Below the pieces are notes generated by a model, which was given only the letters and a program-made list of their open reading frames with translations, was not told the origin of the DNA and did no database searches. Below are positions 6,607 to 46,278 of a stretch of 64,000 bases of DNA, piece by piece. The position numbers and the translations under genes were made by a program. Source of the stretch: Parasphingopyxis lamellibrachiae (GTDB lineage: Bacteria; Pseudomonadota; Alphaproteobacteria; Sphingomonadales; Sphingomonadaceae); assembly GCF_003385775.1 (NCBI RefSeq), contig NZ_QRDP01000004.1, positions 1,597,763 through 1,661,762 on the forward strand. The letters are read 5' to 3'. Position 1 is the stretch's first letter. Each line of letters begins with the position of its first letter.

Positions 6607-8367
6607 GTGACCGAGATCAATCTGAATCCCGACCATCCCGACTGGCCTGTTGTCTCCCTCGCGAGGGCCAATGCGATGCTGACCTCCGAAGGGAGTCCGT
6701 TCGAGACAGAGGTGGTGGAGATCAACGGCCGGCCGACGACAGTCTGGAAGAGCATCCCGCCCACCTTCGCCGATTTTGCCCGGCTCGCTCGCGCTGCCTT
6801 TGGCGACCGTGAGTTCATCATCTTCGAAGACGAACGGGTGACCTATGACGCCTGGTTCCGCGCGGCCGCAACGCTGGCGCATAAGCTGCGCGAAATGGGC
6901 GTCGAAAAAGGCGATCGCGTCGCACTTGCTGCGCGCAACCTGCCGGAATGGCCGGTGGCCTATTTCGCCACGCTTTCGCTCGGCGCTATCGCGGTTCCGC
7001 TCAACGGCTGGTGGACGGGCGGCGAGCTCGAATATGGACTGACGGACTCCGGGGCCAAAATTCTTATTGCCGATGGCTCGCTCTATCAGCGGATCAAGCC
7101 ACATCTCGAAAACCTGCCGACACTCGAGAATATTATCGTAACGCGGCCCGCCGGCGATCTCGATCAGGGGGTTATCGCCCTCGCCGATCTGATCGGAACG
7201 AGCCATGAATGGGCAGGCCTTCCCGACACGGACTTTCCCGAAGCCGATATCGGCCCGGAGACCGACGCGTCCATTCTCTATACGAGCGGCACGACCGGCC
7301 AGCCCAAGGGCGCGGTCGCAACGCATCGCAATTCGCTGACCAACCTGCTTTCCTCCGCCTATGCCACCACGCGCGGCGCGCTCCGGCGCGGTGAGGAGCT
7401 GCCGCCGCCCGGCACGCTGCCCGATCCGATGACGGTGCTGCTCGTCATCCCGCTGTTCCACGTTACCGGATGCACCGCCATGATGGGCCCGGTGATGGCC
7501 GGCGGATCGAAACTGGTGCTGATGCGCAAATGGGACACCGTTCGCGCGATGGAGCTGATCGAGCGCGAGAAGGTCACGCTGACTGGCGGCGTCCCGACGA
7601 TCGCCTGGCAGATTCTCGAACACCCCGACCGGGACAAATACGATCTTTCTAGCCTCGACAGCATCACCTATGGCGGTGCCCCGGCATCGCCCGATCTCGT
7701 CCGCAAGATCAAAAGCGATTTCAAATCCTCGCCAGCCATGGGCTGGGGGATGACCGAAACCTCGGGCACGGTGACCGGCCACAGCGCCGAGGACTATCTC
7801 AACCGCCCGGACAGCTGCGGCCCGCCCGTTCCGGTCGCGCAGCTCAAAATCATGTCGGAAGACGGTACGCGGGAGTTACCCGTAGGAGAGATCGGCGAAC
7901 TCTGGGCGTTTGGCGCGATGGTCGTCAAAGGCTATTGGAACAAGCCGGAAGCGAATGAGGAGGCCTTTGTCGACGGCTGGATCCGCACCGGCGATCTTGC
8001 GAAACTGGACGACGAAGGTTTCTGCTATATCTGCGACCGGGCCAAGGACATGATCATCCGCGGTGGCGAGAATATCTATTCGAGCGAAGTCGAGAACTGC
8101 CTCTACGATCATCCGGCCGTAACCGATGCCGCGCTGGTCGGTATTCCGCACAAGCAGCTCGGCGAAGAACCTGCCGCTGTCGTCCATTGCGCGCCCGGCC
8201 ATGAGGTGAGCGAGGCCGAGTTGCAAGCCTGGGTCGCCGAACGGCTGGCCAAGTTCAAGGTGCCGGTGAAGATCGTCTTTGTCGAAGAAACGCTGCCGCG
8301 CAACGCGAACGGCAAGATCCTGAAAAAGGATCTGCCGAAACTCTATTTTCCGGAGGCAGCAGCCTAG
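6607..8367 (+). CDS. Acyl-CoA synthetase (AMP-dependent synthetase/ligase)
   Basis: Activates a carboxylic acid to its CoA thioester via an acyl-adenylate. The P-loop YTSGTTGQPKG sits at about 225-235, the GWGMTETSG adenylate motif near 375, the GWIRTGDLA hinge region near 460, and the C-terminal lysine motif PRNANGKILKKD near 570. GTG at 6607 is chosen: GGAGAGA at 6594-6600 gives 6-nt spacing, whereas the in-frame TTG at 6592 overlaps that site. At 586 residues it is full length. Substrate is unknown; it faces a beta-oxidation operon and probably supplies it with acyl-CoA. It converges on the thioesterase gene with only 33 bp between. Confidence 0.93.
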   Translation: MTEINLNPDHPDWPVVSLARANAMLTSEGSPFETEVVEINGRPTTVWKSIPPTFADFARLARAAFGDREFIIFEDERVTYDAWFRAAATLAHKLREMGVEKGDRVALAARNLPEWPVAYFATLSLGAIAVPLNGWWTGGELEYGLTDSGAKILIADGSLYQRIKPHLENLPTLENIIVTRPAGDLDQGVIALADLIGTSHEWAGLPDTDFPEADIGPETDASILYTSGTTGQPKGAVATHRNSLTNLLSSAYATTRGALRRGEELPPPGTLPDPMTVLLVIPLFHVTGCTAMMGPVMAGGSKLVLMRKWDTVRAMELIEREKVTLTGGVPTIAWQILEHPDRDKYDLSSLDSITYGGAPASPDLVRKIKSDFKSSPAMGWGMTETSGTVTGHSAEDYLNRPDSCGPPVPVAQLKIMSEDGTRELPVGEIGELWAFGAMVVKGYWNKPEANEEAFVDGWIRTGDLAKLDDEGFCYICDRAKDMIIRGGENIYSSEVENCLYDHPAVTDAALVGIPHKQLGEEPAAVVHCAPGHEVSEAELQAWVAERLAKFKVPVKIVFVEETLPRNANGKILKKDLPKLYFPEAAA

Positions 8368-26616: not shown

Positions 26617-27471
26617 CTAGTGTGGAGATAGATGGTCAAGCAGATCGTGGATAACAGCCTCCGAGCCGAGAATCCTGTTATGGCCATGGCCCTCGGTACG
26701 GACCAGATGCGCCTCGGGCCAGATCCGCGCGATCCTGTCCCCGTCGCCGGGACGCACAACCTTGTCGTCGCTGTCATAGGCAATCATCAACGGGGCATCG
26801 GCGTCGCGTTCCCATGCCATGCCATTTTCCAGATCCGTCCAGCTGCACGAAAACTGATCCGCGATCATGGGTTTGATCCGGTCTAGCACGGGTTCGGGTG
26901 CACCCATTGCCCGCATGCGCTCGATCGGCACATAGGGCAGGAAAGGCGCTGCCAGACATGCATAACGGTCTGCCCGGATGCCATGGGTCCGGCGCCCGCG
27001 CATGATCGCCAGGGCCCCTGCCGAATGCCCGACCCATGCATAGGGCGTTTGCCCTATATGATGCTGCAGGGCCGCGGCATCCTCCATGAAACGGTCGAAA
27101 CCCATCTCGCCATCGCCGGATTCTCCGTGCGATCCGGCATCGAAGAAAACAACCCGAAAATCATGTCCCGCCAGAAGATGCGCGAGACCGCTCATCTGCG
27201 CCCCTCGGCCGCCCCAGCCATGCACCAGATAGACAAGCGGGCCTTCGCCGATTTCCCAGCCGGCAAGCGCATCTCCGACGCCGAAGCGAAAGGCGGCGCA
27301 TCCCGCCAGTCTCGCTGCATCCTCGTCCCGCAAGGGCAGCCCGGCGGCGCGGTCGCTGCGCAGCTTCGCATAGAGCGCATTGGCCATTCCCTCGGCCTGG
27401 CGAGAGGATATTTCCCCGTTCTCGTCTTTTTTCGTCTTGTCGTCTGACTGGTCCCGCGTGGTGCTTTCCAT
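26617..27471 (-). CDS. Alpha/beta hydrolase
   Basis: 284 residues with an alpha/beta-hydrolase core: VYLVHGWGGRGAQM (oxyanion HGW) near 70, the nucleophile elbow WVGHSAGALAIMRG with Ser near 140, and a late His in TEGHGHNRIL. The start at 27471 has GGGAGA upstream; longer in-frame starts lack one and cross the operator. It is divergent from a TetR gene and probably under its control. Esterase or lipase-like activity is likely, substrate unknown. An acidic, Lys-rich N-terminal 30 residues precede the domain. Confidence 0.87.
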   Translation of the reverse strand: MESTTRDQSDDKTKKDENGEISSRQAEGMANALYAKLRSDRAAGLPLRDEDAARLAGCAAFRFGVGDALAGWEIGEGPLVYLVHGWGGRGAQMSGLAHLLAGHDFRVVFFDAGSHGESGDGEMGFDRFMEDAAALQHHIGQTPYAWVGHSAGALAIMRGRRTHGIRADRYACLAAPFLPYVPIERMRAMGAPEPVLDRIKPMIADQFSCSWTDLENGMAWERDADAPLMIAYDSDDKVVRPGDGDRIARIWPEAHLVRTEGHGHNRILGSEAVIHDLLDHLSPH

Positions 27472-27515
27472 GTTTCTCCCTTTCCGTGTCATTGACAGCG
27501 ACTCGTGAGAGATCA

Positions 27516-27533
27516 ATATAGACCAGTCAATAT
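27516..27533. promoter_or_regulatory. Palindromic operator between hydrolase and TetR genes
   Basis: ATATAGACCAGTCAATAT is an 18-bp imperfect palindrome (7 of 9 positions pair). It overlaps a possible rightward -10 element: TTGACA at 27493-27498 lies 18 bp before TATAGA, and TATAAT occurs at 27531-27536. It lies midway in the 89-bp divergent gap, the usual site for TetR autoregulation. Confidence 0.6.
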
Positions 27534-27560
27534 AATTGTACGGGAAGAAGATGGCCGACC

Positions 27561-28163
27561 ATGGCACCACCACAAAAACACAAAATCGCGATTGTCGAAA
27601 CGGCGATGAACCTGTTCAGGAAGAATGGTTATGCCGCTACGGGCCTGAATGCCATTGTCGAAGCGAGCGGCGCGCCCAAGGGTTCGGTGTATCACTATTT
27701 TCCGAAAGGCAAAGCATCGATAGCCGAAGCCGCCGTTCTGCTGGCGGGCGAGCGGACCGCCGCGACGCTCGACGCGCTTTGCACCAAGACAGGCAGCACT
27801 GGCGAGGCGATTACCGGGCATGCGAAGCTGCTTGTGCAATGGATGAAAAAATCCGGATTTCGCGATGGCTGCCCGATCACCACCACCCTGCTGGAACTGG
27901 CCCCCGCGGACCGCGCGGTTACGGCTGCGGGCCGGAACGCATATACGCAGCGTATTGATCGCCTCGCACGGCGGCTGGTGGAGGATGGTTTCGATCCATC
28001 CCGCGCCCGTAACCTGGCTACCCTGTGCACATCGGCGTTGCAGGGCGCCTTGATCCAGTCCCGCATCGAACGGAGCGGGCGGGCGCTGCTGGTAACGGCG
28101 CAGGAACTGGCCGCTCTTCTGGACAATGAAACGGACGACCATAACGCCATTGCCGGGCCGTAA
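27561..28163 (+). CDS. TetR/AcrR family transcriptional regulator
   Basis: A 200-residue repressor. The N-terminal helix-turn-helix is plain (IVETAMNLFRKNGYAATGLNAIVEASGAPKGSVYHYFPKG, residues about 10-50), followed by a variable ligand-binding domain of the LmrA/YxaF-like type (FRDGCPITTTLLELAPADRAV). It most likely represses the divergent alpha/beta hydrolase gene and itself through the palindrome at 27516-27533. The ligand is unknown. Confidence 0.92.
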   Translation: MAPPQKHKIAIVETAMNLFRKNGYAATGLNAIVEASGAPKGSVYHYFPKGKASIAEAAVLLAGERTAATLDALCTKTGSTGEAITGHAKLLVQWMKKSGFRDGCPITTTLLELAPADRAVTAAGRNAYTQRIDRLARRLVEDGFDPSRARNLATLCTSALQGALIQSRIERSGRALLVTAQELAALLDNETDDHNAIAGP

Positions 28164-28247
28164 GCGCACGGAGATCCGCCACCGGCCCCTGCGCATTCGC
28201 GTGCAAGTGATTGCTGTGTGCGCTGCCCGTGCTAAAGGGCGCGGGAA

Positions 28248-30050
28248 ATGACAGAGCTTAGCCATATCCGTAACTTCTCGATCATCGCCCATATCGATCA
28301 CGGGAAGTCGACCCTTGCCGACCGCCTGATCCAACAGACAGGGGGGCTGACGGAACGCGAAATGTCCGAGCAAGTCCTTGATAACATGGACATCGAGAAA
28401 GAACGCGGGATCACCATCAAGGCCCAGACCGTCCGCCTCAACTATACGGCGCGCGACGGCGAGACCTACGAACTCTCCCTGATGGACACGCCCGGCCATG
28501 TCGACTTCGCCTATGAGGTCTCGCGCAGCCTCGCCGCCTGCGAAGGCGCACTGCTCGTCGTGGATGCCGCCCAGGGCGTCGAAGCCCAGACGCTCGCGAA
28601 CGTGTACCAATCCATCGAGCATGACCATGAGATCGTGCCGGTCATCAACAAGATCGACCTCCCCGCCGCCGAACCCGAACAGGTCCGCGCGGAGATCGAG
28701 GAGGTCATCGGCATCCCGGCCGACGAAGCCGTGCTCGCCAGCGCGAAAACCGGCGAAGGCATCGAGGAAATCCTCGAACAGATCGTCCAGAAAATTCCGC
28801 CCCCCACAGGCGACCGCGACGCGCCCCTCAAGGCCATGCTCGTCGACAGCTGGTACGATCCCTATCTCGGCGTCGTCATCCTTGTCCGCGTGATCGATGG
28901 TGTCCTCAAAAAGGGCCTCAACATCAAATTCATGCAGAACGGCACGCAGCATCTGGTCGACCGCGTCGGCTGCATGCGCCCCAAGATCGAGCAGCTTGAG
29001 GAGCTCGGCCCCGGCGAGATCGGCTTCATCACCGCGCAAATCAAGGAGGTGGCGGACACCGCCGTCGGCGACACGATCACCACCGTCAAAAACCCCGCGC
29101 CCGAAGCCCTGCCCGGATACAAGGAAGTCCAGTCCGTGGTCTTTTGCGGTCTCTTCCCCGTCGATGCGGCAGACTTCGACAAGCTCCGCGAGAGCATCCA
29201 CAAACTGCGCCTCAACGATGCCAGCTTCACATTCGAGATGGAGTCGAGCGCCGCGCTCGGCCAGGGCTTCCGCGCCGGCTTCCTTGGCCTGCTCCACCTC
29301 GAAATCATCCAGGAACGCCTGACGCGCGAGTACGACCTCGACCTCATCACCACCGCGCCCTCGGTCGTCTACAAGCTCAGCATGACCGACGGGACGGAGA
29401 TGGAGCTGCACAACCCGGCCGACATGCCGGACGTGGTGAAGATCGCGAAGATCGAGGAGCCGTGGATCAAGGCGACCGTCTATGTGCCGGATGACTATTT
29501 AGGCCCGATCCTGAAGCTCTGCCAGGACAGGCGCGGCATCCAGAAGCAGCTGACTTATGTGGGCGGCCGCGCGCAGCTGGTGTACGAACTCCCGCTCAAC
29601 GAAGTGGTCTTCGATTTCTACGACCGGCTCAAAAGCATTTCACGCGGCTATGCCAGCTTCGACTATGAAGCCATCGGCCACCGCGAGGGCGACCTCGTGA
29701 AAATGAACATCCTCGTCAATGCCGAGCCCGTCGACGCGCTCAGCATGATCGTCCACCGCGCCGCCGCCGAAACCAGAGGCCGCCACATGTGCGAGCGGCT
29801 GAAAGATTTGATCCCGCGCCACCTGTTCAAAATCCCCGTCCAGGCAGCCATCGGCGGAAAGGTCATTGCGCGCGAAACCATCGGCGCCATGCGCAAGGAT
29901 GTGACCGCGAAATGTTACGGCGGCGATATTTCCAGAAAAAAGAAGCTGCTCGAGAAGCAAAAAAAGGGTAAGGCCAAGATGCGGGAGTACGGGAATGTGT
30001 CCATCCCGCAGGAGGCGTTTATTGCGGCGTTGAAGATGGGTGAAGAGTAG
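28248..30050 (+). CDS. lepA: Translation elongation factor 4 (LepA)
   Basis: A ribosome-associated GTPase of 600 residues, full length. G1 AHIDHGKST near 14-22, G2 region [11 protein letters not shown]3 DTPGHVDF, G4 NKID and G5 SAKTG are all present. The EF-G-like domains follow, and the C-terminal LepA domain ends [20 protein letters not shown]. The final codons are used with U/A-ending choices (TTT ATT) that differ from the C-ending body. The last 83 bp recur downstream at 30778-30859, evidence that the 3' end was rebuilt by an insertion. The RadC-like gene overlaps its stop. Confidence 0.97.
29968..30050 (+). repeat. lepA 3' end, upstream copy of an att-like direct repeat
   Basis: This 83-bp tail of the functional lepA gene is repeated in the same orientation at 30778-30859. 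Over the first 72 positions I count about 61 matches. Most differences are third-base changes that keep the peptide KMREYG(N/I)VSIPQEAF. The longest shared core is GCGTTTATTGCGGCGTT. Spacing between copies is 810 bp. Confidence 0.85.
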
Positions 30051-30765
30051 CTGGTTAACTCTGCCTGAAAGACATAAGGGTGATTTGCTTGCCCAAGATC
30101 TGATGCGCGCTGCCGTCATCCGGCGTGATTTTCGAGTATATTTCGAGCGGACCAAACTCTCGTCGGATGAGCAAACCCGGCTGCGAGAATCCTATTATGG
30201 CCCTCCCCCTCGCCGCTGGAGACACCAGATCGCGGAACTGAGCCTTGGCGTTTTCGGTATGGTATGGGTCGGTTGGCTGCTTGTAGAGCTTATATCCATT
30301 CCACCATTGTGGCTGCTTTTCTTCTCCGTTTTCACCGCTGTCGCCCTATGTACCTATAGGATCGTTCGGCAAGTAAAGAGGCGGTCCGTGCGTATTGACG
30401 GTTTTTCGATCGGAAAAGTGGCGGAAATCTGTAGACCGCTCATGGATCACGCCGTCGGCGAACGGTTCATCTTCATTGGAATATGTCGGAATTGGAATGA
30501 ATACAGCATTTGGACAATGGATGGTGGTGCCTATCGCGTTCCGATCAAACTACCAGCCATGTTGCGAGCCCTCGTCGAATGGGATGCAGGCACGGTAGTG
30601 CTTGCACATAATCACCCAAGCGGTCGCGCGGAACCAAGCGAGGCAGATATTCATGCGACACACAAAATCGCTGACGCTCTCCGGTTGCTTGACATGCGGT
30701 TGGCGGATCATCTGATTTTTGCCGGTGGGAACTATTATAGCTTCCGCGAAGACGGGAGAATGTAA
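30040..30765 (+). CDS. Membrane-anchored RadC/JAB (MPN) domain protein
   Basis: 241 codons from GTG at 30040, overlapping the lepA stop by 11 bp; ATG at 30103 is an alternative start. Residues 67-107 hold two hydrophobic segments ([14 protein letters not shown] and [15 protein letters not shown]). The C-terminal half is a RadC-type JAB domain with the metal motif [19 protein letters not shown] (His190, His192, Asp203) and the tail [17 protein letters not shown]. Ordinary RadC proteins are soluble, with a helix-hairpin-helix before the domain; here membrane segments take its place. RadC-family genes are frequent on mobile elements and their biochemical role is unsettled. The base composition is visibly more A/T-rich than in lepA. 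Confidence 0.8.
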
Positions 30766-30777
30766 ACTCGCTTTTCT

Positions 30778-30859
30778 GTAAGGCGAAGATGCGGGAGTAT
30801 GGGATTGTTAGTATTCCGCAAGAAGCGTTTATTGCGGCGTTAAAGATGGGGAGGAGTAG
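30778..30859 (+). pseudogene. Displaced, degenerate lepA 3' end
   Basis: A second copy of the lepA tail, reading [18 protein letters not shown] in frame and then losing the stop through a one-base deletion (GGGGAGGAGTAG against GGGTGAAGAGTAG). It has no gene body in front: the sequence just upstream is the end of the RadC-like gene. It is best explained as the original lepA end pushed downstream when an element inserted and supplied a new one. Confidence 0.8.
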
Positions 30860-30969
30860 TGCTGGCCAGAAGCTCAACGGCGATGGCACCAGCAGCCAAT
30901 TCGAATTGAAAGCTTAGTTTCTCGTGCAACCTTCATTGAGATTCATCTCTCATAGAGTAAGGTCGTCGT

Positions 30970-31749
30970 ATGGCGCGCAACTGGAATAAAGAAGAAACAT
31001 TGCTGGCACTAAGCCTATACCTGCAAACGCCCTATGGAAAAATTCACGATAGCAATCCAGACATTATAAAATTGGCAAAAGCGCTGGACCGGTCCAGCGG
31101 CTCCGTTGGGATGAAAATGCTCAATCTTGCAGCGCTAAACCCAAATGTTATCGCCAGTGGCAGAGTAGGATTACAAAACTACTCCAAGCTTGATGCGTCA
31201 ATCTGGCAGGAATATTCTTCCGATTGGGATGAACTCTCCAAACAAGCTGAAAAACTTGATTCCGTGTTTGCCAAGGGTCAACTGGCATCAAGCGTTGCGG
31301 AAACGAAAAGCACTTTCAATCTTCAGCCACCCACCGGCGCAACAATGGCCGAATCTCTTGTAGAACAGCGACGTGGGCAAAGTTATTTTCGCCGTATAGT
31401 TATGGCTAACTACCAAGAAAAATGTTGTATTACGGGTATCGCTGAACCGAAATTGTTGGTGGCCAGCCACATCAAATCTTGGAAAGCGGATGAAACCAAT
31501 CGCCTCAATCCGGCAAACGGACTGGCGCTCTCAGCAACCTTTGACAAAGCATTTGACAAGGGTTTGCTGACGATAAGTCACGATCTCCGAGTTAAAGTAT
31601 CAGATCGACTGCTAGCGCACCCAAATGCCGAAACACGAGAGTGTTTCGAGCCCTATCATGGTGTTCTAATAGCGGAGGCAGACCGTTTTGTGCCGCAGCA
31701 AGAGTTTATTGACTGGCACAACGACTTTTTCGAGAAGCAGGCAGCATAG
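30970..31749 (+). CDS. HNH endonuclease (HNH_2-type, predicted restriction-like nuclease)
   Basis: 259 residues. The N-terminal 60 (NWNKEETLLALSLYLQTPYG, then SSGSVGMKMLNLAAL) look like a small helical DNA-binding domain. A linker follows, then a C-terminal HNH_2-like fold: CCITGIAEPKLLVASHIKSW with His167, NRLNPANGLALS with Asn residues 177-183, and FDKAFDKGLLTI. This architecture is found in stand-alone predicted restriction endonucleases (COG3440-like). No methyltransferase is adjacent, so it may target modified or foreign DNA, or depend on the small downstream gene. Codon use and A/T content are unlike the neighbours, suggesting transfer. Confidence 0.85.
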   Translation: MARNWNKEETLLALSLYLQTPYGKIHDSNPDIIKLAKALDRSSGSVGMKMLNLAALNPNVIASGRVGLQNYSKLDASIWQEYSSDWDELSKQAEKLDSVFAKGQLASSVAETKSTFNLQPPTGATMAESLVEQRRGQSYFRRIVMANYQEKCCITGIAEPKLLVASHIKSWKADETNRLNPANGLALSATFDKAFDKGLLTISHDLRVKVSDRLLAHPNAETRECFEPYHGVLIAEADRFVPQQEFIDWHNDFFEKQAA

Positions 31750-31751
31750 AG

Positions 31752-31961
31752 ATGTATGAAATTCGTGTTCGCGAGCTTGGTTGCCGTGAAATCCTACAAA
31801 GACAACGTTTCAGCGCAGACACCTACGATGACGCTTTGAGGATACATGCAGAGTTTTGGAATGATCACTACGCTTACACGGATAGATTTACTTCCTCGCT
31901 ACTCTATAAGGAAATTGGACAGCGACAATGGCGGTTAGGCGCTTTGATAAACTGGCTCTGA
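31752..31961 (+). CDS. Small unknown protein downstream of HNH nuclease
   Basis: 69 codons starting 2 bp after the HNH stop, so surely co-transcribed. The protein is charged and aromatic (QRFSADTYDDALRIHAEFWN, then DHYAYTDRFTSSLLYKEIG) with no membrane segment or signal. I do not recognise a family. Tight linkage to a nuclease allows a role as inhibitor, immunity or accessory factor; that is speculation. It is A/T-rich like the HNH gene. Confidence 0.55.
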   Translation: MYEIRVRELGCREILQRQRFSADTYDDALRIHAEFWNDHYAYTDRFTSSLLYKEIGQRQWRLGALINWL

Positions 31962-32044
31962 GCGGAATCAGTTTCGTGTGAAGCACGGCAATCTAGAAAC
32001 ACTCTACGAAAAATTCGAAACCGTGGTGCTTTAAATCTGCCTAT

Positions 32045-32320
32045 CTACTTTCTCTCCTCCCTGTCCCTCATCACCCTTAGCTCCTGCTCATGGCCGCTCT
32101 GGTCGAGCAGGTCCTTGCCCTCCTCAGCCGCGCGCCAGGCGCGTTGGCGGGCGGCGGCGAGGAGGGTGGTCAGGGGGGCGCGTCTCTTCGCCATCGCCGG
32201 GCAGCCAGGGGCGTTCGGGGTCGCGCGTGCCGTTGGCGATGTCCACCAGCGCGCGCCGCGCCGCCAAATTCGATCACCAGCTCGATCCGGGTGAGCTGGC
32301 GCGCGTAAAAGTCCGTCCAT
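32045..32320 (-). pseudogene. Frameshifted remnant of a small protein gene
   Basis: Coding-like sequence runs through three frames in order. After the ATG at 32320, one base too many precedes DFYARQLTRIELVIEFGG. A shift then gives ALVDIANGTRDPERPWLPGD, and another gives RAPLTTLLAAARQRAWRAAE and on to a TAG at 32045. Joined, they form a plausible protein of about 90 residues with no obvious family. High GC sets it apart from the A/T-rich HNH genes. Sequencing error could give the same picture, but three indels in 276 bp argue for decay. Confidence 0.55.
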
Positions 32321-32643: not shown

Positions 32644-34023
32644 ATGAAACATACCGCCCTTGCGCTGTCGGCCTGTGCCGCGGCGATGATCGTCAGCACA
32701 CCGGCACTTGCCAACGACGTGCCGCCAGAGGTTCAGGCCGAGCTGGAGGAATTGCGCAGCCGCGTGCAGACGCTGGAGGCCATGGTCGAGCAGCTGGTCG
32801 GTTCGCAGACCGCTGTCGCAAGCCAGGCGGCGGAGGCCAGCGCGGCGGCTGTCGCAGCGCAGGCGGTGGCCAGCGAGGCGAGCGAGGCTGTCGCGGCGGC
32901 CCCGAGCATATCGATGGGCGCGGCGCCGCGGGTGCGCACGGAAAGCGGCTGGGACTTCCGGCCGTTCGGGCGCATCCAGTATGACATGGGCTATGTCAGC
33001 GGGCGGGACCGGCTGATGGATCCGGGGCTGGGCTGGTCGAACGAGCTCAGGCGCGGGCGGATCGGCGTGCGCGGCGCAATACCAGGCGGTTTCGAATATA
33101 AGGTAGAGGTGGATTTCGCCGGCAACGACGTGACGCTCACCGATGCGCTGATCAGCTATGATGCGGGCGATTTCAAGATCACGGTCGGCCAGCATAATCC
33201 GTTCCAGTCGCTCGAGGAGCTGACATCGAGCCGCTTCACCAGTTTTATCGAGCGGGCGGCCTTTACCGATGCTTTCGGGTTCGAGCGGCGGGTCGGCCTG
33301 TCGGTGAATTACGCCAATGGCGATTTCCGCTGGGACGGCGGCGTGTTCACCTCCAATATCGACGACCTGACCAGTGACGAGCAGGACAGCTATTCCTTCG
33401 ATACGCGCGCCGTGTACAGCCCCGAAGTCGGCGGGGCGCAGCTCCATTTCGGCGGATCGCTGCACTGGCGGGACCTGCAGAGCCAGCCCGGCAATCGCTA
33501 TCGCCAGCGGCCGCTGGTCCATTCCACCGACACCCGGATGATCGCCACCCCCACCCTGCCCGTCACCGAAGAGACGAGCTACGGGCTGGAAGCGGCGGTG
33601 ATCCGCGGCCCCTTCCATGCGGTGGCCGAGGTCCACTGGCTGGAGGCCGAGCTGTTCGGCATGACCGACCCGACCTTTTTCGGCGGCTATGCCGAGGCCG
33701 GCCTGTTCCTGACGCCCGGCGACACGCGCGGCTATTCAGGCGGCAAGTTCAACCGCACACGCCCTGCGCGAACGGTTGATGAAGGCGGGATCGGCGCGGT
33801 GCAGATCAATGTCCGTTACGACTATCTCGACCTCAACGATGCGGGCGTGGTCGGCGGGCAGCAGAATCTGATCGGCGCGTCGGTGATCTGGACGCCCATC
33901 GATCATGCGCGGCTGTCGCTCAGCTATGGCCATATCGAATATGACGATGCTGCGATCCCCGCCGGGGCCGACAGAAATTATTCGGTCGACAGCTTCGGCG
34001 TGCGGGCCGAGGTGGATTTCTAG
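32644..34023 (+). CDS. Phosphate-selective porin O/P-like outer membrane protein
   Basis: A 459-residue outer-membrane beta-barrel. A signal peptide (MKHTALALSACAAAMIVSTPALAN) is followed by a coiled coil (PEVQAELEELRSRVQTLEAM) that probably trimerises or spans the periplasm, then an Ala-rich linker. The barrel runs from about residue 105 with alternating strands (FRPFGRIQYDMGYV, LSLSYGHIEYD) and ends in the terminal aromatic EVDF. The layout matches the OprO/OprP family that admits phosphate or polyphosphate. The Pho box directly upstream supports phosphate control. Converges on phoU. Confidence 0.87.
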   Translation: MKHTALALSACAAAMIVSTPALANDVPPEVQAELEELRSRVQTLEAMVEQLVGSQTAVASQAAEASAAAVAAQAVASEASEAVAAAPSISMGAAPRVRTESGWDFRPFGRIQYDMGYVSGRDRLMDPGLGWSNELRRGRIGVRGAIPGGFEYKVEVDFAGNDVTLTDALISYDAGDFKITVGQHNPFQSLEELTSSRFTSFIERAAFTDAFGFERRVGLSVNYANGDFRWDGGVFTSNIDDLTSDEQDSYSFDTRAVYSPEVGGAQLHFGGSLHWRDLQSQPGNRYRQRPLVHSTDTRMIATPTLPVTEETSYGLEAAVIRGPFHAVAEVHWLEAELFGMTDPTFFGGYAEAGLFLTPGDTRGYSGGKFNRTRPARTVDEGGIGAVQINVRYDYLDLNDAGVVGGQQNLIGASVIWTPIDHARLSLSYGHIEYDDAAIPAGADRNYSVDSFGVRAEVDF

Positions 34024-44829: not shown

Positions 44830-46170
44830 TCAATATTTCGAGAGCGTAACCGGCATTTTCTTGAACCCGTGGACGAAATTCGAATTCACGCGCTCGATTT
44901 CGCCGGTGATTGTCGGGCGCAGCCGCCGCTTCGCCATTTCTTCGAACAGCACCTGCAGCTGGAGCTCGGCAAGACGCGCACCGACGCAGCGATGGATGCC
45001 ATAGCCAAAGGCCACCTGACGCCGAGCATTTTCGCGATCGACGATCCAGTCATTGGCATTCTCGAACACGCTCTCGTCGCGGTTGGCCGAGATGTACCAG
45101 AGGATCATCCGGTCGCCCTTCTTGATCTTCTTCCCGTCAAGTTCGGTGTCCTGCATCGCCGTGCGCCGCATATGCGAGAGCGGCGTCTGCTTGCGAATGG
45201 TCTCGGACACCGCGTTCTTGATCAGGTCCGGATTCTCCTCAAGCTTGCGGGCCTGTTCGGGGAACTGGTTCATAAAATAGACGGCGCCGGACATCGAGTT
45301 GCGCGTCGTATCGTTGCCGCCAACGATCAGCAACGTGATATTGCCGAGGAAATTGCGCTCGTCCATATCGCCCAGCGCTTCCGAATGCGCCATCATCGAG
45401 AGGAGATCGGGGCCGGGATCGCTTTCCTTGCGCTGCTTCCACAGGGCCTGGAAATAGGCCGCAGCCTCCCACATCGCCTCGGCACGCTTGGGGCCGAGCT
45501 CGGGGTCCATCGCGGCAACCACATCGCCCATCCAGTCTGACCAGTAGGTCAGCTTGCGCCGGTCTTCCCAGGGAAAGCCGAACAGGATGGCGAGCATGCC
45601 CGTCGTCAGTTCGATCGACACCTTGTCGACCCAGTCGAATTCCTCGCCGATCGGCAGGCTGTCCAGCAGCTCGGCCGTCCGCGCGCGGACATTTTCGTCC
45701 AACCGGCTGATTTCGCTCGGCGTAAAGGCCGGGGAAACCGTGCGGCGCTGGGCCGTATGCTCGGGCCGGTCCATCCCGATGAACATCGGCAGAGCCATGG
45801 TTTCATCATCGCTGGAGTCGAGAATGGTGAAGCCGCCATTGCGCCAGTCCGAGCTGTAGATGTCGGGCAGCGATTCGACTTCGACGAGCGGCTTGTAGGT
45901 CGTCACCGACCAGAAAGCGCCGTACACGCTGTCCTTGCAATAATGGACGGGATCTTCGCGGCGCAGCTTTTCGAAAACCGGCTGCCAGCGATCCAGCGCA
46001 TAGAGTTCAGGCCGGCTGACATCAATATCTTCGAGCGGCGTATCGGCGGTCGCCAGCGGTTTTTCGAGCGTCGAGCGATCGATACCGTCGCGAAATTCGC
46101 GCGCCCATTCTTCGCGATAGAGTTGCTCAGGGGTCTTTTCAGGAATGTTGTGCGCGGGATGCGTCGCCAT
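44830..46170 (-). CDS. CYP153-type cytochrome P450
   Basis: 446 residues, close relative of the next gene downstream. An N-terminal extension of about 30 residues is present. I-helix VGGNDTTRNS (283-292), ExxR ETIRKQTPLSHMRR (323-336) and haem loop FGYGIHRCVGARLAE with Cys395 are intact. The two differ mainly in the N-terminal half (substrate recognition), suggesting distinct substrate ranges. ATG at 46170 has GAGGAGA upstream. A perfect-armed palindrome lies 109 bp before the start. Probably co-transcribed with the second P450, 74 bp downstream. Confidence 0.93.
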   Translation of the reverse strand: MATHPAHNIPEKTPEQLYREEWAREFRDGIDRSTLEKPLATADTPLEDIDVSRPELYALDRWQPVFEKLRREDPVHYCKDSVYGAFWSVTTYKPLVEVESLPDIYSSDWRNGGFTILDSSDDETMALPMFIGMDRPEHTAQRRTVSPAFTPSEISRLDENVRARTAELLDSLPIGEEFDWVDKVSIELTTGMLAILFGFPWEDRRKLTYWSDWMGDVVAAMDPELGPKRAEAMWEAAAYFQALWKQRKESDPGPDLLSMMAHSEALGDMDERNFLGNITLLIVGGNDTTRNSMSGAVYFMNQFPEQARKLEENPDLIKNAVSETIRKQTPLSHMRRTAMQDTELDGKKIKKGDRMILWYISANRDESVFENANDWIVDRENARRQVAFGYGIHRCVGARLAELQLQVLFEEMAKRRLRPTITGEIERVNSNFVHGFKKMPVTLSKY

Positions 46171-46278
46171 TTTTGTCTCCTCAGTGGCGCTCACCCCGGA
46201 ATGGCTCCGTGTTGCGGCGCGATCTCTGCCCTATTCTATAAGGCTAAATTTATCGGTAGCAAAATGAGACTGACACAA

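Follow-up and report, generated by a model that had tools for sequence, protein, structure and literature searches.

Orphan lepA tails in sphingomonads suggest gene acquisition without a nearby integrase

Integrative elements use and rebuild the 3′ ends of genes, with tRNA genes, guaA and prfC among their sites. The lepA gene studied here, in a 64-kb stretch of Parasphingopyxis lamellibrachiae DNA (the window), resembles such sites in that a conserved gene was used and kept intact and a displaced fragment was left. It is unlike them in the lack of a nearby integrase in the searched genomes with displaced lepA tails, in its variable breakpoints, and in cargo that often amounts to one or two genes. 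lepA has also been named as a prophage site in Salmonella (quoted in a passage of PMC5502288).

As set out in parts of Jackson et al. 2009 (PMC2935791), Rhs C-terminal displacement involves laterally acquired 3′ ends, with the old ends present as dissociated downstream fragments in arrays, and homologous recombination with circular intermediates was proposed. As far as those parts go, the lepA site is alike in that the gene body is kept, the 3′ end is replaced and the old end is orphaned downstream (26 of 397 family genomes had orphan tails). However, a swapped Rhs tip is a different sequence, whereas the peptide encoded by the swapped lepA tail hardly differs and what is gained is the cargo behind it; furthermore, lepA is a housekeeping gene. 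Given these two differences, the lepA site would, by analogy, work like Rhs displacement as a variant rather than a member. The effector-immunity arrays of the Vibrio cholerae T6SS were attributed to putative homology-facilitated illegitimate recombination in the sections of Kirchberger et al. 2017 (PMC5361080) drawn on here. Judged by those sections, the two systems would share an upstream homologous anchor, a downstream illegitimate joint, and a newest unit beside the anchor with older remnants behind it; the anchor there is part of a secretion-system cluster and the remnants are immunity genes, whereas the anchors here are lepA and recN and the remnants are nonfunctional tails.

According to excerpts from Oliveira et al. 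2017 (PMC5635113), many hotspots are without integrases, some being free of mobile elements altogether, and recombination, inferred statistically within clades, is more frequent in the flanking core genes. The lepA site is similar to the hotspots of those excerpts in having variable genes between core genes, often with no integrase. Gene entry into such hotspots has so far mostly been inferred statistically, whereas orphan lepA tails would mark single events family-wide. The tails look like physical footprints of such events, readable in many genomes, that record which gene served as anchor, which cargo came in and perhaps in what order. If this is true, Rhs/T6SS-type displacement would extend to housekeeping genes, and there would be a simple marker for recently moved defense and toxin-antitoxin genes. 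Our analysis confirmed a recurrent, real phenomenon, explained in outline below. No literature on this lepA site in sphingomonads was found among the open-access matches listed, a set with few subscription papers.

The repeated lepA end and its surroundings

The original prediction had stated that the lepA 3′ end recurs behind the gene with 61 of 72 positions identical, that the differences are mostly synonymous, and that the second copy lost its stop by one base, and all of this proved essentially right. Copies A and B (Table 1) are in direct orientation, 810 bp apart from start to start, and identical at 62 of 73 ungapped positions (85%), while the second-best 73-mer on the + strand of the window reached 36/73 (mean 18.7, s.d. 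3.9). Nine codon differences are synonymous and one is nonsynonymous (N to I), compared to an expected synonymous share of ~21% for random changes (binomial p ~7e-6), and B is one base short near its end, which breaks the frame before the stop. The excess of synonymous differences argues that A and B are the ends of two lepA lineages, diverged mostly inside working lepA genes, and not the result of a decayed local duplication. Among the lepA loci examined, B was most similar to G003, a congener, and to one species of another genus. The G+C content was 0.523 for the insert and 0.468 for 30860-32040, compared to 0.609 for lepA and 0.612 for the window.

Table 1. Features of the lepA region, in window positions
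Feature	Position	Strand	Basis
lepA (elongation factor 4), intact, 600 aa; anchor gene	28248..30050	+	NCBIfam TIGR01393, E 4.3e-291
Conserved lepA block coding K-Q-K-K-G-K-A	29951..29974	+	lepA comparisons
Copy A, functional lepA 3′ end	29968..30050	+	window sequence comparison
RadC/JAB-domain ORF, cargo 1	30040..30765	+	PF04002, E 2.8e-22
Junction, 12 bp, RadC stop to copy B	30766..30777		sequence
Copy B, displaced out-of-frame lepA tail	30778..30859	+	62/73 identical to A
HNH endonuclease gene (restriction-enzyme like), cargo 2, behind copy B	30970..31749	+	PF13391, E 1.3e-10
69-codon ORF in variable segment, without family match	31752..31961	+	ORF list, family searches
Right border of variable segment, conserved with congeners	32069..32315		DNA identity 71-74% to G007, G005, G004
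Phosphate-selective porin, next gene conserved in the genus	32644..34023	+	PF07396, E 3.5e-61

With the RadC/JAB ORF in front of copy B and the HNH gene behind it, B separates two cargo units. The former ORF has up to 241 codons; its GTG start overlaps the lepA stop, so that the true start may lie further in. Its N-terminal half contains a hydrophobic stretch (by eye), and its translation carries the motif HNHPSG...PSEAD, which we take to be the JAB metal motif. The only solved relative found by sequence search was the RadC homologue 2qlc (E 1.8e-9). At 1e-15, matches came from 9 of the 397 family genomes, namely the own genome and eight with generic, partial RadC matches of 36-49% identity. 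No close relative of the gene was found in the 396 other family genomes or in a scan of genome contigs, plasmids held only distant JAB proteins, and PADLOC gave no match. The HNH gene matched PADLOC HNH PDLC04132 (E 1.1e-85) and scored far under the family cut-off for NF045808. No DNA match to the RadC gene, the HNH gene or the stretches around them was seen in the lepA loci examined.

In the genus, the porin stands at +257 behind lepA in G009, +1075 in G001, +3594 in G005, +3891 in G007 and +7043 in G003, which leaves a nearly empty gap of 256 bp in G009 and a gap of ~1.1 kb in G001. Different genes, several of them of defense type, occupy the gap in G000, G003, G005 and G007, i.e., there is accessory variation between the same core genes: G007 has HipA-like, DUF3037 and HNH proteins, G003 a DRT type 3 reverse transcriptase, and G005 a weak candidate defense match. 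The site in G004 is filled with a Vsr endonuclease and a cytosine methylase (phoU was found there, the porin was not), and the contigs of G002 and G008 stop before the gap can be read. Extra lepA tails were present in G001 and G002; within the available sequence, none were seen in G003, G004, G005, G007, G008 or G009, and G006 gave no lepA match. The RadC gene of the window was absent from all other congeners searched; the match in G001 is a generic RadC on a different contig. These data bear out the predicted insertion behind an intact lepA. Empty sites with a single B-like tail in relatives and different cargo between two tails in other genomes had been named as signs of it; G009 has a nearly empty gap, other congeners have other cargo, and different cargo between two tails was found elsewhere in the family (see below). 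Relatives all sharing both tails and the RadC gene had been named as the contrary sign, and no other searched congener has that gene.

Extra lepA tails and tail swaps across the family

When a 213-bp lepA end was used as the query against 397 family genomes, 37 gave at least two matches. On re-search, 26 of these, the own genome included, had a same-strand tail just downstream of lepA as judged by coordinates (G219 was counted among them, although its tail spans a contig break); nine had only weak matches of ~40 bits elsewhere, and G360 and G376 were other cases. Comparing each lepA region against itself revealed three more extra-tail cases in 40 single-match genomes, and 26/397 is therefore a lower bound. 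In whole-genome scans of the 37, strong tail copies adjoined lepA; the exceptions, in G219, G222 and G360, were pieces at a contig end or on a second contig. Displaced tails had 5′ ends that lay, relative to the lepA stop, between −38 and −796. Starts close to −77 were found in the window (−83), G001 (−85) and G002 (−76 to −78), and other tails began at −101, −132, −160, −188, −207, −274 and −796.

The genes between the tails were CcdAB in G035, ParE with PaaA2 in G061 and G375, ParE in G130, DUF2283 proteins in G063, G099 and G303, PhnA in G108, a Phenol_MetA protein in G267, an AAA ATPase in G025, and DUF6481 proteins in G364 and G227. Of 30 proteins searched against Pfam, comprising the porin, cargo and genes of the hotspot, seven were without a match at 0.01, and some of the further matches were under the cut-off of the family. 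Small foreign genes behind lepA, often of defense or toxin-antitoxin type, suggest integrase-free insertion next to essential genes.

Some loci showed particular arrangements. At L034 (G025), a displaced piece lies 4.3 kb behind lepA, after a 644-aa protein and the AAA ATPase, which PADLOC matches as IetA-like; the piece spans 794 bp, shares 97% identity with the intact gene and probably reflects a recent, large event. L033 (G002) has four consecutive lepA tails, one intact and three displaced, with proteins of 1076 aa and 212 aa, both without a Pfam match, between the last two. A common alternative lepA tail together with ~60 bp was seen in several genera (L054, L055, L056, L063, L068 and L078; L057, L072 and L080 are similar). 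These ~60 bp contain a G+C-rich hairpin (by eye), and the module lies inside or ahead of the displaced tail. The hairpin, seen beside tails with short gaps, was rejected as a dispersed repeat, since the exact pattern occurred once each, beside lepA, in eight of nine loci (8-18 kb) and was absent from the ninth.

Tail copies were found for lepA in 22 of 91 regions, many of them chosen for their tails, compared to 6 of 592 other ORFs, namely a paralogue-like pair, an antisense-like ORF, a chance match in ligA (L185), a kynureninase end in the hotspot and two recN genes. In the 40 regions from single-match genomes, which were picked against extra tails and from the best-scoring rows of the family search, the counts were 3/40 for lepA and 4/312 for other ORFs (p 0.035), the latter being three recN genes (one by chance) and one gene within the hotspot. 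Downstream tail copies occurred in 18 of 45 loci, many chosen for tails, compared to upstream head copies in 1 of 45. That single head copy, at L076 (G375), is a repeat of the lepA start upstream of the gene over 133 bp (84%).

Among 120 aligned lepA genes (one genome was present twice), the last 25 codons correlated with the rest of the gene at r 0.286, compared to a mean of 0.545 over windows; codons 1-50 correlated similarly poorly, with fewer comparisons there. Synonymous identity in the last 25 codons was the lowest of all 576 windows, which ruled out conservation of the tail by selection on DNA. Close lepA pairs had a tail distance of >0.5 in 6 of 17 cases and not in the other 11, one of which is the same genome twice. 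Synonymous codon differences were 0.056 in the rest of the gene and 0.636 in the tail for G223/G169, and 0.156 and 0.870 for G015/G132. In these two sister comparisons the switch is abrupt, at about −77 bp, and the swapped tail starts directly after the equivalent of the KQKKGKA block; in a third close pair, G168/G262, it is less sharp and closer to the stop. The abrupt sister tail swaps and the weak tail-body correlation point to recombination in the flanking core gene lepA, as expected of a hotspot of this kind.

In the near relatives G169 and G223, the site is empty in the former and filled in the latter, whose insert encloses the displaced native tail. In G169, an ABC-type ATPase gene stands directly behind lepA. 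G223 instead has an insert of ~6.5 kb with a hydrolase, a kynureninase, a decayed G169-type tail, a Z1-domain protein and a DNA methylase, past which it returns to 96.9% identity with G169 over 1473 bp. The decayed tail together with 32 bp of G169 downstream sequence is 85.5% identical over 69 bp, and ahead of it are short stretches that by eye resemble native intergenic DNA and the ATPase start.

We also asked which of the tails is native. Of 26 displaced copies compared with the nearest relative, with limits set by hand, one had no neighbors, leaving 25. The displaced copy was closer to the nearest relative in seven (by at least 5 points in six), and these cases show displacement. The intact tail was closer in 16, the window included, and the remaining two were a tie and L078, which was split between two equally near relatives. 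In the window, A was 89% and B 80% identical to the nearest relative, G007, compared to 90% for the gene body, and in G108 and G130 the intact tail was closer by wide margins. Decay of the orphan or a foreign displaced copy can both fit such intact-closer cases.

Recombinases, vehicles and the recN-ligA gap

In 23 genomes, the empty G169 and 22 that have displaced tails, no tyrosine recombinase (PF00589) was found less than 50 kb from lepA on its contig, counting the stronger matches listed, on contigs of which some are short; the closest among the matches listed was 57 kb away, in G130. The own genome has six tyrosine recombinase matches, none within 450 kb of lepA. Likewise, no serine recombinase (PF00239) was located within 50 kb of lepA among the matches listed for 32 genomes. 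G219 and G222, which have extra tails too, were outside these searches. An integrase screen with rebuilt seeds gave none in 95 lepA-region loci, three motif matches being judged chance. Integrase matches did occur in congeners that lack displaced tails: two in G003, 40-45 kb downstream of lepA and beyond the porin and phoU, one in G007, ~7 kb upstream, and a broken one in G004, ~14 kb upstream.

The original prediction had offered a tail-targeting site-specific element as one option and a recombination-borne cassette as another. The lack of a listed recombinase within 50 kb, the varied 5′ ends and the confinement of strong extra tails to positions beside lepA (the contig-end and second-contig pieces apart) argue against the former, and the latter fits best. 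As to a crossover core, the two sister switches lie near −77, yet displaced tails begin at varied positions in the range given above; the switch and the start of B at −83 could reflect a preferred site.

Candidate vehicles were searched as well. A gene transfer agent was rejected on the only marker tried, PF13547, which was absent from 60 genomes, with the positive control found in Caulobacter. Free lepA tails gave no match in phages. Among plasmids, 11 of 72,556 records matched, of which three were annotated lepA and the others, unannotated, probably represent lepA carried by large replicons. Neither search showed a donor molecule, and free tails on either kind of DNA were rejected. The one matching contig filed as viral, L153, appears microbial: its lepA is whole, and a PLD-like protein and two ORFs resembling adenine methylases (by eye) come after it.

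A comparable arrangement was seen behind recN. In G389 (L213, 6198-7636), the order is recN, cargo, a truncated ligA start, a displaced recN tail, another gene and ligA. The ligA fragment comprises the first 73 codons and is 94% identical to the intact ligA of the same genome, compared to at most 78.5% to other species among the best 20 matches listed. About 6 bp are shared at the ligA′/recN joint (by eye), and no core common to the recN and lepA sites was seen by eye. It looks as if two alleles, each reading recN-cargo-ligA, had been fused within ligA and recN, an end that broke in the neighboring core gene having been rejoined to the anchor gene. This gap speaks for an anchored process that is partly illegitimate and, by the same logic, for such a process at the lepA tails. 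The recN-ligA gap at L196 (G074, 7011-7953) also has a recN tail copy behind new cargo.

A proposed route of gene acquisition and its rivals

We consider it fairly probable that the lepA 3′ end is an anchor for integrase-free gene acquisition in the family, by a homologous crossover and an illegitimate second joint. The repeat, the swapped tails of some sisters, the varying cargo, the empty and filled sites and the lack of a listed recombinase within 50 kb of lepA in the searched genomes with displaced tails are observed; the crossover mechanism, the donor and the order of events in the window are what we infer. Incoming DNA from a related bacterium would bring its own lepA 3′ end plus other genes behind it, pair with the resident lepA, often near the KQKKGKA block, and cross over there by homologous recombination; since a working tail comes with the donor DNA, lepA would remain intact. 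At its far end the incoming DNA would be joined by illegitimate recombination, or by the joint that closes a circular intermediate, in some cases within the resident lepA tail; a linear molecule homologous at one end would fit as well as a circular one. The old tail would thereby end up as an orphan fragment downstream of the new cargo, and repeated rounds would stack cargo units with orphan tails in between. The order in the window would then read as the RadC-like unit 1, orphan tail B, unit 2 with the HNH endonuclease, and the native downstream segment. Several observations count against this route: the intact tail is closer to the nearest relative in 16 of the 25 cases, 11 of the 17 close pairs show no tail distance of >0.5, codons 1-50 also follow the rest of the gene poorly, the switch near −77 and the start of B could mark a preferred site, and the phage and plasmid searches showed no donor molecule. 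A wider reading, of which we are slightly more doubtful than confident, is that the housekeeping genes lepA and recN serve as family-wide docking ends for integrase-free stacking, each arrival swapping the tail synonymously and leaving an orphan as a record of the event, so that defense and toxin-antitoxin genes would spread without mobility genes of their own.

The abrupt switch near −77 in two sister comparisons could also be the work of a site-specific recombinase that acts in trans, or has been lost since, and inserts small cassettes with replacement tails at a lepA core at that position. The tails of the window, G001 and G002, which begin close to it, and the alternative tail with its ~60-bp module common to several genera would agree with this. 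However, we regard such a recombinase as unlikely: the other displaced tails begin at −101 to −796, the G168/G262 switch is less sharp and nearer the stop, neither a tyrosine nor a serine recombinase is listed within 50 kb of lepA in the displaced-tail genomes searched, and recN has a like architecture with no common core by eye. The stacked allele of the window (RadC, tail B, HNH) might have been imported ready-made by double homologous recombination, after displacement in another lineage. A is about as close to G007 as the gene body is, B is clearly more distant from it, and the nearest sequences to B are those of G003 and of a species of another genus, all of which such an import would explain; yet no relative with the RadC gene turned up in the 396 other family genomes or the genome-contig scan, and RadC, HNH and their surroundings had no DNA match in the lepA loci examined, and this course of events seems quite improbable to us. 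An old tandem duplication of the lepA end within the genome, followed by decay, would account for the closeness and direct orientation of the copies. It is hardly to be reconciled with nine of ten codon differences being synonymous although B is a nonworking tail, with cargo between tails that varies by genome, and with the swapped tails of some sisters, and we therefore hold it to be very improbable.

Two other stretches of the window were noted. The ~800 bp upstream of lepA (27450-28247, with a TetR-type gene) were unlike eight congeners in one alignment, so that lepA may have variable DNA on both sides. At 44830-46194, a 454-aa ORF on the − strand adjoins a copy of its own end (75% over 264 bp), probably a tandem paralogue.
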